A stretch of 64,000 nucleotides of DNA from Acetomicrobium hydrogeniformans ATCC BAA-1850 (GTDB lineage: Bacteria; Synergistota; Synergistia; Synergistales; Acetomicrobiaceae): NCBI RefSeq assembly GCF_000160455.2, contig NZ_ACJX03000001.1, positions 878,001 to 942,000 of the forward strand, given 5' to 3'. Below, piece by piece: positions 38,106 to 43,576 of this stretch. Position 1 is the stretch's first letter. The number at the start of each line of letters is the position of its first letter. The translations under genes were made by a program, and so were the position numbers. The notes beneath the pieces are model-generated. The model was not told the DNA's origin. It worked only from the letters and a program-made list of their open reading frames with translations, and searched no databases.

Positions 38106-38585
38106 ATGAACGAAAATACAGCAAATGATATTTTAAGGAGCAAGGGCCTGGCAGCAACGAAACAGAGAGTTGCAATTTTTCTAAAAATAGAGGAGTGCAA
38201 TTGCCACTTCACGGCAGGGGAATTGCATCGAATGCTCGCTGAAGATAAATTCAGGGAAAGGGTGGACCTTGCCACCGTTTATCGGACGATTAAGACCTTT
38301 GAAAGAGCTGGTTTGCTCAGATGCGTGGCCGAGATCGGCAGTTGTCGATACTACGGGAGGATCGACAACTGCGGCTTTGAACACCCCCACTTTTATTGCA
38401 GGAAATGCAGGCGATTATTTTGCCTTAAAACGATGAAGTTGGACTCGAAGGATATAGAAAATCTCGAAAAAATTGGCTTCGAGCCTCAGTTTCTGCTTCT
38501 TACGGTAGAGGGCTTATGTGCACAATGTAGCGAAGGAGGACATTCTAAGAATGGGCAGGACGATAGGACGCAGAGGTCTGATTAA
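38106..38585 (+). CDS. Fur-family metalloregulator (Zur-like by context)
   Basis: A 159-residue Fur/Zur/PerR protein. The winged-helix part has VDLATVYRTIKTFERAGLL; the metal-binding part has HPHFYCRKCRRLFC and the C-terminal CAQC, a structural-zinc Cys4 site. No ribosome site precedes the ATG and the promoter sits directly upstream, so translation is probably leaderless. Its end overlaps the zinc binding-protein gene by 35 bases. Co-transcription with znu-type genes supports a zinc sensor over an iron sensor. Confidence 0.88.
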   Translation: MNENTANDILRSKGLAATKQRVAIFLKIEECNCHFTAGELHRMLAEDKFRERVDLATVYRTIKTFERAGLLRCVAEIGSCRYYGRIDNCGFEHPHFYCRKCRRLFCLKTMKLDSKDIENLEKIGFEPQFLLLTVEGLCAQCSEGGHSKNGQDDRTQRSD

Positions 38586-39435
38586 GATACTTTTGCTTTT
38601 TTTAAGCATATCGTTGTTTTTGGACAAAAACACATCTGCATTTGCAGATAATGAAGAGATAGTATTCGTTTCGGTGCCACCCATTGCCTATTTTGTCGAA
38701 AAAATAGGAGGGGAGACGATAAGGGTAGAATCGCTCATAAATCCCGGCAACGATCCTCACGTATATGAGCCAAAACCGAAACAAATGGCGGACCTTTCAA
38801 AGGCAAGGTTATATTTTTCTACGAACTTTCCCTTTGAGAGGAACCTTTTGACGAAGATAAAGGCCACGAACCCTAATCTGACCATAACCGAGACTGGTTA
38901 TGGAATTTCATATATGGCAGATGCAGCACATAAAGGCCATGAAGGGGAGGACGACTTCGATCCCCATATCTGGAGCTCGCCCTTAAACGCTTTTAAGATA
39001 GCGGAAAATATCTACAGGGGGCTCGTTTCCACAAACCCGGAAAAAGTAGAAATCTACAGGAAAAATTATCTGGAACTGCTGAGAGGCATAGCAAAACTGG
39101 ACGAGGAGTTATGGGAAAGGTCAAAGTCAGCAAGGGGGATTAAATTTCTGGTCTTTCATCCTGCATGGAGTTATTTTGCGAGAGATTACGGTTTAATTCA
39201 AGTTTCCGTGGAACAGGAAGGCAAGGAACCCAAAGGTGCTCAACTTTCCCGTTTAATCGAAGATGCCAAAAAAGAGGGAATTAAAGTGCTCTTCGTCTCT
39301 CCTCAGCATTCGAAAAGAAGCGCTAAAACCATAGCTGACGCCATAGGAGTGGAGATCGTTGAGATTGACCCACTCTCCAAGAAATGGGACGAGAACTTAA
39401 GATCCATGGTCAAGATTCTCTGCGAGGCTCTCTAG
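38551..39435 (+). CDS. Zinc/manganese ABC transporter binding protein (ZnuA-like)
   Basis: A 294-residue cluster A-I metal-binding protein with an N-terminal signal (cleavage near SAFA). The mature sequence starts VFVSVPPIAYFVEKIGG; metal-site His and Asp are in NPGNDPHVYEPKPKQ, the acidic/His loop HKGHEGEDDFDPHIW, VFHPAWSYFA and VEIDPL. The short His-rich loop favours zinc. The ATG with GGAGG 11 bases upstream is preferred to a GTG 11 codons earlier. Confidence 0.9.
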   Translation: MGRTIGRRGLIKILLLFLSISLFLDKNTSAFADNEEIVFVSVPPIAYFVEKIGGETIRVESLINPGNDPHVYEPKPKQMADLSKARLYFSTNFPFERNLLTKIKATNPNLTITETGYGISYMADAAHKGHEGEDDFDPHIWSSPLNAFKIAENIYRGLVSTNPEKVEIYRKNYLELLRGIAKLDEELWERSKSARGIKFLVFHPAWSYFARDYGLIQVSVEQEGKEPKGAQLSRLIEDAKKEGIKVLFVSPQHSKRSAKTIADAIGVEIVEIDPLSKKWDENLRSMVKILCEAL

Positions 39436-39447
39436 GCAGGTCCCAAG

Positions 39448-40221
39448 ATGAGAGGCCCACAGGATATCTATTTCGAAGACGTCTGGTTTTCATACAACGG
39501 TTCCTTCGTGCTCCGGCAGGCTTCCTTTTCGGTGCCGACAAGGGAATTTCTGGTCATTATCGGTCCAAACGGAGGGGGAAAGACTACGCTTCTAAAGCTG
39601 ATGCTGGGGCTTTACTCTCCTCAAAAGGGAAAAATCATTCTTTTTGGCGAATACACGCCAAGAGAGGCTTCGCACCTGTTGGGTTACGTCCCCCAAAACA
39701 CAAATATAAATCTGGATTTTCCCGTCAGAGTCATCGACGTGGTGCTCATGGGAAGGTTGCGGGGTTTGAAATTCCTTTACACGAAAGAGGACAGAAGGGC
39801 CGCCGAGGAGGCACTTGAAATCATGGGCATGGACAAATATGCCAACGCCAGGATGAGAGAGCTTTCGCAGGGACAGAGACAGCGCGTGTTAATCGCCCGG
39901 GCACTGGTCTCTCAACCAAGAATATTGCTGTTGGACGAGCCGACGGCAAGCGTTGATGTCGAAGCGCAAAGGATACTATACGACAGATTGAGGGAGCTGA
40001 ATGAAAAGATAACCATAGTACTCGTAAGTCATGATATGACCGTGATATCGAGCTATGCTACAGCCGTGGCCTGCGTCAACGGCACGGTCTATTATCACGG
40101 TTCAAAGGAGATAACTTCTGAGATGCTCCAGATGGCCTACGGATCCTGCCCCGTGGAGCTGGTAGCCCACGGCATTCCCCACAGAGTACTGGCCAAACAC
40201 GACGGTGATCGCGATGCTTGA
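39448..40221 (+). CDS. Zinc/manganese ABC transporter ATPase (ZnuC-like)
   Basis: A 257-residue ATP-binding protein. Walker A IGPNGGGKTTLLKL, Q-loop YVPQNTNI, signature LSQGQRQRVLIARAL, Walker B ILLLDEPTASVD and switch His LVSHDM are all intact. It powers the metal importer with the binding protein upstream and the permease downstream, which overlaps its last codons by 8 bases. Confidence 0.93.
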   Translation: MRGPQDIYFEDVWFSYNGSFVLRQASFSVPTREFLVIIGPNGGGKTTLLKLMLGLYSPQKGKIILFGEYTPREASHLLGYVPQNTNINLDFPVRVIDVVLMGRLRGLKFLYTKEDRRAAEEALEIMGMDKYANARMRELSQGQRQRVLIARALVSQPRILLLDEPTASVDVEAQRILYDRLRELNEKITIVLVSHDMTVISSYATAVACVNGTVYYHGSKEITSEMLQMAYGSCPVELVAHGIPHRVLAKHDGDRDA

Positions 40222-41032
40222 GGCCCTCCAATACGAGTTCATGAGAAACGCACTGGCTGCTGCTGTCCTGGCAAGTGTCATATGCGGGATCATGGGAACG
40301 ATTGTAGTCAGTAAAAAACTGGTATCCATGGCGGGAGGGGTAGCTCATGCAGCCTACGGGGGCATAGGAATGGCATTGTTTTTCGGCTTTTCGCCCCAGC
40401 TTGGAGCAATCGGTTTTGCCCTTGCCTCCTCTCTTTTCATGGCTTGGACGACTTTAAAGATGGCCTCCAGGGCCGATACGGTGATCAGCATCATATGGGC
40501 CGTGGGGATGGCTACAGGGGTGATATTTTCAGACCTCACTCCAGGGTACGGGGCAGACCTGATGAGCTATCTCTTTGGCAGCATACTCATGGTCGCTAAA
40601 GAAGACATATTGTACATGGCAATCCTGAGCCTGGCACTTTGTGCTTTTGTACCACTCTTTTACGGGCATTTACTGGCCTATTCCTACGATGAAGACTACG
40701 CCCGAACGAGGGGAGTGCCGGTGGACGTCCTTCATTTCACGGTTATAGTATTGGTGTCCTTCTCCGTGGTGCTTACGATAAGGATCGTCGGACTTATTCT
40801 CGTAATAGCCCTTCTTTCCATCCCTCCCTACATAGCAGAAAAGTTTTGCCGGTCCCTGGCGGGGATGATGGCCACGTCCTTTCTCTTGAGCATGTTCTTT
40901 TCCGTCTTGGGCCTGGCGGCAGCTTACGCCCTCGATCTAACGTCGGGCGCAGCGATAATAATCATTGCCGCCATCGGTTATCTTGCCGCAGAGGTATATT
41001 TAAAGTTCAGAAAAAAGCCAAAGGGGGCTTGA
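40214..41032 (+). CDS. Zinc/manganese ABC transporter permease (ZnuB-like)
   Basis: A 272-residue ABC-3 family permease with about eight helices. Motifs are GIMGTIVVSKKLVSMAGGVAHAAYGGIG, SIIWAVGMATGVIF and TIRIVGLILVIALLSIPPYIAE. The ATG at 40214 and a GTG at 40205 are both possible starts inside the 3' end of the ATPase gene. Its stop codon overlaps the -35 box of the serA leader promoter. Confidence 0.9.
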   Translation: MLEALQYEFMRNALAAAVLASVICGIMGTIVVSKKLVSMAGGVAHAAYGGIGMALFFGFSPQLGAIGFALASSLFMAWTTLKMASRADTVISIIWAVGMATGVIFSDLTPGYGADLMSYLFGSILMVAKEDILYMAILSLALCAFVPLFYGHLLAYSYDEDYARTRGVPVDVLHFTVIVLVSFSVVLTIRIVGLILVIALLSIPPYIAEKFCRSLAGMMATSFLLSMFFSVLGLAAAYALDLTSGAAIIIIAAIGYLAAEVYLKFRKKPKGA

Positions 41033-41057
41033 CAACTTTTCTCCTGAGTATTATAAA
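41029..41057 (+). promoter_or_regulatory. Consensus promoter of the serA leader
   Basis: TTGACA (41029-41034), 17-base spacer, TATAAA (41052-41057): the best promoter in the window. It overlaps the stop codon of the zinc permease gene. Transcription near 41064 gives a leader of about 237 bases before the serA ATG. Confidence 0.82.
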
Positions 41058-41127
41058 AAACGAAATTTAAGGTTCGACGAAGTGGTGAGGCAATATTATG
41101 ATGCCTAAAAAAATAATATTTTCCATG

Positions 41128-41204
41128 TCATGCGGCAACGGTAGCAACTCTCGATCCTGGTCCCGAAACCAGGATTGGAAAGAGTGTTGCTTTTGGCCGC
41201 ATGA
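41128..41204 (+). ncRNA. Long hairpin in the serA leader, undescribed cis-regulatory RNA candidate
   Basis: Nested stems: 9 bp (41128-41136 with 41196-41204), then AGCAA/TTGCT and CTCT/AGAG, then ATCCTGGT (41154-41161) with ACCAGGAT (41168-41175) around a CCCGAA loop. Upstream, AGGCA/TGCCT and AATATTAT/ATAATATT are competing pairings (41088-41120). It lies between a consensus promoter and a terminator that abuts serA. It does not show T-box, SAM, or lysine riboswitch cores. Confidence 0.6.
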
Positions 41205-41240
41205 AAGCTCGTAGAGTCTCGTTTTTTACATTAAGCTACA

Positions 41241-41276
41241 AAATGGGCCGGAGGCGACACCTTCCGGCCCATTTTT
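41241..41276 (+). terminator. Terminator immediately upstream of serA (attenuator candidate)
   Basis: 11-bp stem (41241-41251 with 41264-41274) extended by GG/CC, then TTT run. Only about 25 bases remain before the serA ATG, filled by the GGGGGGG ribosome site. No promoter fits there, so serA mRNA should depend on read-through. Confidence 0.85.
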
Positions 41277-41300
41277 ATATTTCTAAAAGGGGGGGAATTT

Positions 41301-42935
41301 ATGTTTAAAGTCTTAATAACAGAACATATTCACGAAGAGGGCTTGAAGGAACTCTATGAGGCACCTGACATCGAGGTAATCCTTCGGTTGAACATGTCGC
41401 AGGAGGAGCTTTGCGATGCCGTCAAAGACATGGACGCCCTGATCACCAGGAGCGGAACTGCCGTGGACAAAAAGCTGCTGGAAGCAGGCAAAAAGTTGAA
41501 AGTGGTAGCCAGAGTCGGAGTGGGGGTAGACAATATCGATTTAGGCGCTGCGAGCAAGATGGGGATTATAGTGCTCAACTCGCCCACGGGTAATACTCTT
41601 GCCGCCACGGAGCTTACCATGGGGATGATATTTTCGATCGCAAGAAAAATCCCGCAGGCGAACAATTCACTGCTGTCGGGAGAGTGGAAGAGGGAGAAGT
41701 TTCTAGGGACGCAACTTTACGGAAAGACCCTTTTGATAGTTGGCCTGGGGAGGATAGGCTCCTCAGTGGCAACGAGGGCAAAGGCGTTGGGAATGGAGAT
41801 ATTTTGTTACGATCCATACATAAATCCGAAAAAGGCCGAAAACCTCGGAGTTAAACGTCTGGACGATCTAAGGGGAGCTTTATCCCTCGCAGATTTTGTA
41901 ACCCTTCACGTGCCCCTGACGCACGAGACCAGAAACATGATCAACGAAGAAACTCTGAAATCTACCAAAAGAGGGGCATATCTGATAAATTGTGCCAGAG
42001 GAGGGATCGTAAACGAAGGAGCCTGTGCGAAGGCACTCAAGGAAGACAGGTTGGCCGGGGCTGCTTTCGACGTCCACGTCGTCGAACCGGCAAAGGAAAG
42101 CTCCCTTTTCGACCCCGCCATAATAGAGAAGGTCGTCGTAACACCCCATATAGGAGCAAACACCAGGGAGGCCCAAAGAGCCGTCGCCGAGATCGTGGTG
42201 AAAAACCTCATAAAAGCGCTATCGGGCGAACCCTACGAAAATGCCGTAAACCTCCCCTATATGGAAAACAAGATGACCCTTCAGGAAAGGGAGTTTCTGT
42301 CGCTTGCCAGAAGGATGGGCATGATAGCGGCTTGTGTCATCAAGGAACACGTTGATGAGATCACCGTGGCCATGGCCGGACCCTTATTTGAAGAGGTCGA
42401 GATAAGCTTGCCCTTTGAAGTACCCTACAGATATATGCCCTTCACGGCAGCGGCTCTTAAGGGGCTTCTCGAGGTAAGGCTGGGCCCTGAAGTGAACGCC
42501 ATGTCGGCGCCTCTTCTCGCAAAGGAGCATGGTATAAGCGTCTTCGAGAGCAGGCGAGAGGCAAGGACGTATAAAAATGTACTTGCCATCGAAGTCAAAT
42601 CTCAAAATAAGACCTTTTCCATGGCGGGAACGGTGACGGAAGAGGGCAAAAAGCGAATAGTAGGCGTAGATGATTACGAGATAGATTTCGTTCCCGAGGG
42701 GTGGGTGCTGCTTTTTTCCAACCACGACAGGCCTGGGGTCATAGGAAAGATAGGCACATTGCTGGGAGATTACGGAGTAAACATCGCAAACTTTGCCTTG
42801 GGGAGGAAAAATGGGAGCGGGCTTGCCATCGCTGCCCTTCAACTTGACAGCAGCATTCCAAAAGAGGCAATGGAAAAGATCCAAAAAGATGCAGATTTAA
42901 TCTGGGCCCACCTGATAAACCTCAAAGGAGAGTGA
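41301..42935 (+). CDS. serA: D-3-phosphoglycerate dehydrogenase
   Basis: A 544-residue long-form PGDH, first step of serine synthesis. The catalytic domain has TRSGTAVDKKLLE and ARVGVGVDNIDL; the NAD domain has GLGRIGSSVATRA; active-site Arg is in NCARGGIVNE and His in TPHIGANT. An allosteric-substrate-binding-like domain (about 320-455) and a C-terminal ACT domain (DRPGVIGKIGTLLGDYGVNIA) suggest serine feedback. Preceded by the attenuator-like leader and followed 3 bases later by a histidine phosphatase gene. Confidence 0.95.
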   Translation: MFKVLITEHIHEEGLKELYEAPDIEVILRLNMSQEELCDAVKDMDALITRSGTAVDKKLLEAGKKLKVVARVGVGVDNIDLGAASKMGIIVLNSPTGNTLAATELTMGMIFSIARKIPQANNSLLSGEWKREKFLGTQLYGKTLLIVGLGRIGSSVATRAKALGMEIFCYDPYINPKKAENLGVKRLDDLRGALSLADFVTLHVPLTHETRNMINEETLKSTKRGAYLINCARGGIVNEGACAKALKEDRLAGAAFDVHVVEPAKESSLFDPAIIEKVVVTPHIGANTREAQRAVAEIVVKNLIKALSGEPYENAVNLPYMENKMTLQEREFLSLARRMGMIAACVIKEHVDEITVAMAGPLFEEVEISLPFEVPYRYMPFTAAALKGLLEVRLGPEVNAMSAPLLAKEHGISVFESRREARTYKNVLAIEVKSQNKTFSMAGTVTEEGKKRIVGVDDYEIDFVPEGWVLLFSNHDRPGVIGKIGTLLGDYGVNIANFALGRKNGSGLAIAALQLDSSIPKEAMEKIQKDADLIWAHLINLKGE

Positions 42936-42937
42936 AG

Positions 42938-43576
42938 ATGTTGCGATACTACCTCATGAGACACGGAGAAACGACCTGGAACGCCAAGGACGTATTTCAG
43001 GGAAAGCAGGACACGCCTTTAAGCGAAAAGGGCCTGCTTCAAGCCAAGCTTACTGCGAGCCTCGCTTCCCGGATCGGAAAGGCAAGGATATGGTGCAGCC
43101 CCCTTAAGAGGGCATTGCAAACGGCAGAACTCCTGGCCGAAAGGGGCGGATATGAGATACTAACAGAAAAAGGCCTGATGGAGATAGATCACGGCAAATG
43201 GGAACGCCTTCATGTGGAAGAGGTGAAACGTCTTTATCCGGAATCCTTTGAGATGTGGCACAAAGAGCCCGATAAGGTCGTAATGCCCGATGGCGAAAGC
43301 CTGAGGGACGTTCAGGAACGGGCTTTAAGGGTTTTGACCAAAATAAGGGAAAGCGGAGAAGAGCAGGCTATTATAATGACCCATGACGCCGTGATCAAAT
43401 GTCTTCTCTGCCATTGGCTCGAGCTTCCACTCTCGAAGTACTGGAGTTTCAAGTTCTCAAACTGCAGCGTATCCATAGTGGAGGAAGACGATAAGGGTAA
43501 GGCAGTCATCTTGCTCCTCGACGATGTATGCCACTTAGAGCAAGGCTGGACCTGGCCGGAACAAAAATCGGTGTAA
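42938..43576 (+). CDS. Histidine phosphatase family protein, possible phosphoserine phosphatase
   Basis: A 212-residue phosphoglycerate-mutase-fold protein: MRHGETTWN (phosphohistidine), WCSPLKRALQTAELLA, the acid in EIDHGKWE and the second His in MTHDAVIKCL. Length fits GpmB/CobC/PspA-type phosphatases, not full glycolytic mutase (about 250). The ATG 7 bases after GGAG follows serA by 2 bases. Metal-independent phosphoserine phosphatases of this fold are known in Hydrogenobacter; co-transcription with serA makes that role attractive but unproven. Confidence 0.85.
   Translation: MLRYYLMRHGETTWNAKDVFQGKQDTPLSEKGLLQAKLTASLASRIGKARIWCSPLKRALQTAELLAERGGYEILTEKGLMEIDHGKWERLHVEEVKRLYPESFEMWHKEPDKVVMPDGESLRDVQERALRVLTKIRESGEEQAIIMTHDAVIKCLLCHWLELPLSKYWSFKFSNCSVSIVEEDDKGKAVILLLDDVCHLEQGWTWPEQKSV

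Follow-up and report, generated by a model that had tools for sequence, protein, structure and literature searches.

The serA locus and its leader

The window analysed in this study, a stretch of 64,000 nucleotides from Acetomicrobium hydrogeniformans ATCC BAA-1850, includes the serine biosynthesis gene serA. Upstream of it (38106-41032) lie a gene for a Fur-family regulator and then a metal (zinc-type) ABC transporter operon ending at 41032, with the -35 box of the serA promoter overlapping the stop codon of the upstream permease gene. The features of the locus are the following:

41029..41057, + strand: sigma-70 type promoter, TTGACA-17-TATAAA (consensus match)
41084..41090, + strand: Shine-Dalgarno site GGTGAGG of the leader ORF, found in the sequence 7 nt before the ATG at 41098
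41098..41214, + strand: leader peptide ORF of 38 codons, MMPKKIIFSMSCGNGSNSRSWSRNQDWKECCFWPHESS and stop, found by reading all frames; Ser-rich relatives in 37/45 sampled genomes
41122..41163, + strand: control region with six Ser codons (TCC 41122, TCA 41128, AGC 41143, TCT 41149, TCC 41155, TCC 41161)
41128..41204, + strand: 77-nt nested hairpin, regions 1:2 (protector hairpin), z = -8.0
41189..41255, + strand: predicted antiterminator, regions 2:3, GCUUUUGGCC (41189-41198) with GGCCGGAGGC (41246-41255)
41240..41283, + strand: intrinsic terminator, regions 3:4, 15-bp stem (41240-41254 with 41261-41275) followed by a U-rich tail
41301..42935, + strand: serA, phosphoglycerate dehydrogenase, 544 aa (NCBIfam TIGR01327 PGDH, 611 bits, cut-off 454)
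42932..43576, + strand: gene of the histidine-phosphatase family, overlapping the serA stop codon; best match phosphoserine phosphatase PspA, below cut-off

The encoded SerA is 97% identical to SerA of Acetomicrobium sp. UBA5826. The histidine-phosphatase gene (NF045917, E = 3.7e-54, 184 bits versus a cut-off of 350 bits) is the second gene of the predicted regulated operon.

The consensus promoter proposed in an earlier, sequence-only reading of this DNA was borne out, as its boxes (41029-41034 and 41052-41057, spacer of 17 nt) constitute the sole exact match to TTGACA-N16..18-TATAAA in the window, where 0.05 would be expected. The same promoter was also found in the congeneric genomes G003, G004 and G001. 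That reading had further stated that no second promoter fits between terminator and gene, which is nearly right: one weak match (9/12) exists at 41254-41281, inside the terminator, and G004 has not retained the second hexamer of this match. The leader RNA, extending from about 41060 to 41276, has a minimum free energy of -85.3 kcal/mol (z = -5.3 versus dinucleotide shuffles). Within it, the 77-base nested hairpin described earlier was recovered with a folding energy of -43.2 kcal/mol. The terminator (41240-41275) has a 6-nt loop and folds at -24.8 kcal/mol (z = -5.4); it is located about 25 nt 5′ of the serA ATG (41301), with its U-rich tail ending shortly before this ATG. Its presence had been noticed before, but the stem length of 11 bp given then was too short. 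Two mutually exclusive small pairings, which had also been reported, do exist as sequence at around 41088-41119; they overlap the Shine-Dalgarno site and the start codon, and were rejected for lack of conservation in two congeneric genomes.

What the earlier reading overlooked is an open reading frame that passes straight through the 77-nt hairpin. This ORF starts at 41098 or 41101, has its stop codon at 41212 and is a short, Shine-Dalgarno-preceded ORF between promoter and terminator. Serine accounts for 8 of its 38 residues, and the control region contains, besides its six Ser codons, codons for Cys (41131), Gly (41134 and 41140) and Trp (41158). The Ser codons are cognate to the product of the pathway to which the downstream gene serA belongs, and an intrinsic terminator stands ahead of that gene. 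Because the Ser-rich ORF runs through the hairpin, the latter is best seen as regions 1:2 of an attenuator and not as an aptamer. A single Ser-rich ORF is not rare, as 6/98 ORF-like starts in the window, the leader ORF included, contain at least five Ser in 15 codons. The case therefore rests on recurrence at one gene between genomes.

Serine-rich leader peptides in the Synergistota

This SerA is encoded by 83 of the 183 genomes of the order, and the upstream DNA was read for 45 genomes, either directly ahead of serA or ahead of the class V aminotransferase gene which precedes serA in most families. A Ser-rich short ORF in front of serA or of the aminotransferase-serA operon was found in 37 of these 45 Synergistota genomes, and such leaders occur in all nine families of the order having this serA. 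Examples of the leader peptides are MIFDHILFGMGSGSSSSSSGWSGRAGLPLPAEEEPQSPI (G182), MTKSKKRLLGIGCSGAMGSSSSSWEGDSSSIVLFLRAPETDY (G013), MRYKTFSASISCSSLSSGLSSCGWSSPPCRSQSE (G149) and MFISTSLFRSSCGSSSASRGCEWCIFRFFSPGPGTLS (G035). An automated rule, which demanded a Shine-Dalgarno-preceded ORF with at least five Ser in 15 codons, was passed by 33/45 regions versus 1.5 expected from dinucleotide shuffles, and a terminator was located by script in 35 of the 37 leaders. Eight of the 45 sampled genomes exhibited no clear leader. The leader is also absent in the four genomes of a sister lineage outside the order, in which serA sits in a longer operon.

The class V aminotransferase gene (TPGPV motif; L042-L081) is absent at this place in families f1 and f8, and all its NCBIfam matches are below cut-off. 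It may encode the missing phosphoserine or serine transaminase. The window's genome (G000) contains only a distant homologue of this aminotransferase (31% identity) at another site. At one locus (L070, G179) the aminotransferase gene seems to be largely deleted, with serA following soon after the terminator, and the Ser-rich leader and terminator persist.

The leaders contain 22-24% Ser overall versus 5-6% in background proteins. Within the same 21 genomes, Ser amounts to 21.9% of leader residues and 4.9% of SerA residues (P = 2e-54). Conserved Ser codons vary mostly synonymously within the genus (AGC/AGT, TCT/TCC). The leaders are also enriched in Cys (6.4% vs 0.9%), Trp (3.4% vs 0.6%) and Gly (13% vs 8.9%). 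These three amino acids are the ones made at the expense of serine. Part of the excess of Cys and Trp can be attributed to RNA pairing; in the window's genus, UGUUGCUUUUGG overlaps the antiterminator strand. Among the Ser codons, the leaders prefer UCN over AGY (144:25 versus 370:180 in SerA, P = 4e-6). In B. subtilis, serine starvation raises the ribosome density at UCN and Cys codons, not at AGY codons (PMC3862929). It is conceivable, albeit rather doubtful, that the leader reads a shortage of serine through several amino acids and acts as a serine-family sensor tuned to the codons at which ribosomes slow first. This natural preference for UCN over AGY provides evolutionary data against which to test the theory that the way tRNAs lose their charge governs the choice of regulatory codons.

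Alternative folds and the proposed attenuator

The predicted antiterminator is formed by the 3′ arm of the 77-nt hairpin pairing with the 5′ arm of the terminator, and includes an extra CAU/AUG pairing of 41200-41202 with 41243-41245. To analyse the competing folds, a ribosome was placed at various codons and the RNA downstream of it, truncated ahead of the terminator's 3′ arm, was folded in silico. With the A-site on any of the six Ser codons at 41122-41163 the antiterminator forms, with a pairing of the terminator arm of 0.97-0.98, whereas the helix 41189-41198/41246-41255 is absent once the A-site has reached the late Cys codons. A ribosome at the stop codon likewise leaves no antiterminator, and the terminator arm is then engaged in weak local pairs (0.51). 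On ribosome-free RNA, 41194-41204 are sequestered in the 77-nt hairpin. Thus, in these simulations, the antiterminator appears on stalling at Ser codons and not at the stop codon.

In an analogous folding of 35 leaders, the terminator arm was paired with upstream RNA at a mean of 0.64 with the ribosome at Ser codons and of 0.35 with it at the stop codon. The pairing in the stalled state exceeded that of shuffled RNA (0.68 vs 0.58, Wilcoxon P = 0.001), with 12/35 leaders individually reaching P <= 0.1. In the absence of a ribosome, the mean antiterminator pairing over the 35 leaders was 0.62, with the terminator not clearly favoured in many families; the protector hairpin is therefore not clear in every family. 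The competing arms have different sequences in different families; for example, the window's genus pairs UUUUGGCC with GGCCGGAG, and several genera of family f5 pair GUCUCAAAGCG with CGUUUUGAGAC. Peptides of f5 leaders (e.g., L055, L057, L067 and L069) often carry SQSE near or at their end, and conservation of these ends is accounted for by RNA pairing, as TCTCAAAGCGAATAG is the antiterminator strand.

Covariation in relatives, the lack of which the sequence-only reading had named as a refutation of its claim, is weak but positive within the genus. Among five congeneric genomes, 92-100% of cells are paired per helix of the 77-nt hairpin, whose apical helix contains two pairs in which both partners have changed; two pairs of the terminator also exhibit changes on both sides, and hairpin and terminator taken together have 96% of cells paired and four such pairs. 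In the long helix of the antiterminator 94% of cells are paired with zero double changes, and as this helix is nearly invariant, covariation within the genus cannot support it.

The serA leader is very probably a ribosome-mediated transcription attenuator for serine biosynthesis, of the leader-peptide type known from trp, for instance in E. coli, or from his, and most likely senses the charging of Ser-tRNA. In favour of this reading are the Shine-Dalgarno-preceded Ser-rich ORF, its recurrence, the alternative folds, the covariation of hairpin and terminator, the preference for UCN codons and, as a positive control, the trpE leader of the same genome. The earlier proposal of a serine-linked, attenuator-type leader controlling serA is supported to this extent. 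RNA polymerase would start near 41064 and, assuming coupled transcription and translation, a ribosome would follow on the leader ORF. With ample charged Ser-tRNA the ribosome would reach the stop codon at 41212 and cover the 3′ arm of the hairpin, whereupon the terminator (41240-41275) would form and serA would not be transcribed. At a shortage of charged Ser-tRNA the ribosome would presumably stall on the Ser codons at 41122-41163 and cover the 5′ arm of the hairpin; the freed 3′ arm (41189-41198) would pair with the 5′ arm of the terminator (41246-41255), the terminator would be blocked, and serA together with the phosphatase gene would be transcribed, which would constitute the response to serine. 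On RNA without a ribosome, the 77-nt hairpin would hold the 3′ arm and termination would be the default.

The idea that the leader is instead a metabolite-binding riboswitch for serine, phosphoserine or glycine, with the 77-nt hairpin as aptamer and the ORF arising by chance, appears highly improbable. The nested hairpin is indeed very stable, the order of promoter, fold and terminator is that of a riboswitch, and Rfam matches are lacking: a cmscan of the window, a check which the sequence-only reading had suggested, gave zero matches at the gathering threshold and only chance-level ones at the serA locus at a loose threshold, in agreement with the earlier statement that common riboswitch cores are absent. 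Yet Ser-rich in-frame ORFs are shared by nine families with otherwise dissimilar leader RNA sequences, and the Ser enrichment is confined to one frame (23.8% versus 7% in each other frame of the same DNA, 35 leaders). Moreover, the strand competing with the terminator lies within the hairpin's best-conserved stretch, and across families no aptamer-like conserved nucleotides or structure were seen, only the Ser codons and the competing pairings being kept. As the nested hairpin is mostly Ser-rich coding region, the serine- or phosphoserine-responsive aptamer or protein-bound RNA inferred earlier is very unlikely, and sensing is expected to be done by a ribosome running short of charged Ser-tRNA rather than by an RNA binding serine or phosphoserine. 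Genome scans for structured RNAs would label this leader a riboswitch candidate, an error which a preceding check of the reading frames avoids.

Slightly less probable still is a nascent-peptide arrest leader similar to TnaC or the Erm leaders, in which the peptide itself would stall the ribosome by binding a small molecule within the exit tunnel. The presence of a leader ORF with a terminator and the conservation of SCG, SRSW and CC within the genus would fit with such an arrest. Between families, however, Ser richness is kept with little alignable peptide sequence and with Ser codons varying in number and position, and RNA pairing of GUUGCUUUUGGCC accounts for the CC pair close to the end. 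An attenuator controlled by a protein (PyrR-like) or an sRNA, or a leader that is a terminated independent small RNA, is similarly implausible, as the terminator ahead of the gene and the strongly folded stretch are outweighed by the lack of any conserved protein-site-like sequence between families, by the presence of all parts of a leader-peptide attenuator and by the ORF and terminator travelling together with serA or the aminotransferase-serA operon.

Relation to known regulatory leaders

Like the attenuators of trp, his, leu, thr, phe and ilv operons (PMC9413887, PMC1262725), the serA leader contains a Shine-Dalgarno-preceded ORF rich in codons for the pathway product and shares with them the 1:2 hairpin, the 2:3 antiterminator, the U-tailed 3:4 terminator and a biosynthetic gene next to it. 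It differs from these classical examples in its proposed regulatory amino acid, serine, and in its occurrence in Synergistota; moreover, it has many spread Ser codons, mostly UCN, where classical attenuators have a short tandem run. While the mechanism is a known one, the serine specificity was not found described: the literature searched, including the main text of a study on intergenic regions of the Synergistota member Thermovirga lienii (PMC6429828), mentioned no serine leader peptide or serA attenuator, an entry in the supplementary tables of that study, outside this search, being possible. With the serA leader, serine would join the amino acids that are sensed through leader-peptide attenuation, and this in a phylum for which descriptions of regulation are scarce.

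The serC leader RNA of alpha-proteobacteria (RF00517; PMC1273637) likewise precedes a serine biosynthesis operon, serC-serA. Its two short stems are thought to hide the ribosome-binding site, and a leader peptide or terminator is not described for it (PMC1273637); its covariance model found no match at the serA locus. Cys-rich leader peptides ahead of cys operons in Mycobacterium (PMC1262725) resemble the serA leader in being rich in the amino acid of the pathway, but the amino acid is cysteine and a terminator was not found there. Sensing through UCN serine codons is also described for sinR of B. subtilis (PMC3862929): a serine shortage slows ribosomes at UCN and Cys codons, as proposed here, but the effect is on the translation of a repressor gene and involves neither leader nor terminator.

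Within the same Acetomicrobium genome, trpE is preceded by a leader ORF ending in NNNWWWQAR before its stop codon (Trp-Trp-Trp). This locus (L095, G000:C1, upstream of trpE at 676531) consists of the short ORF MIILNNHNIKNNNWWWQAR and subsequent terminator-like hairpins and is apparently a trp attenuator, so leader-peptide attenuation is apparently in use in this organism. Leaders similar to that of serA were not seen ahead of serS and cysK in this genome.

T-box leaders (RF00230) also sense tRNA charging and, as the serA leader, frequently have a terminator at their end, ahead of amino-acid genes, but they bind the tRNA directly whereas the serA leader would sense it by translation of codons. 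The absence of a T-box at serA, noted before, was confirmed, as RF00230 has no match at the locus and three matches elsewhere in the genome. These (L039, L040 and L041) are located on G000:C1 at 1376409-1376637, 188749-188985 and 1814030-1814278 with scores of 109, 90 and 64 bits, respectively, of which only the first passes the Rfam cut-off, and, judged from the adjacent ORFs, they precede thrC-thrB, argG and dapA. The order-wide serA leader hence coexists in one genome with T-boxes ahead of threonine, arginine and lysine-family genes.
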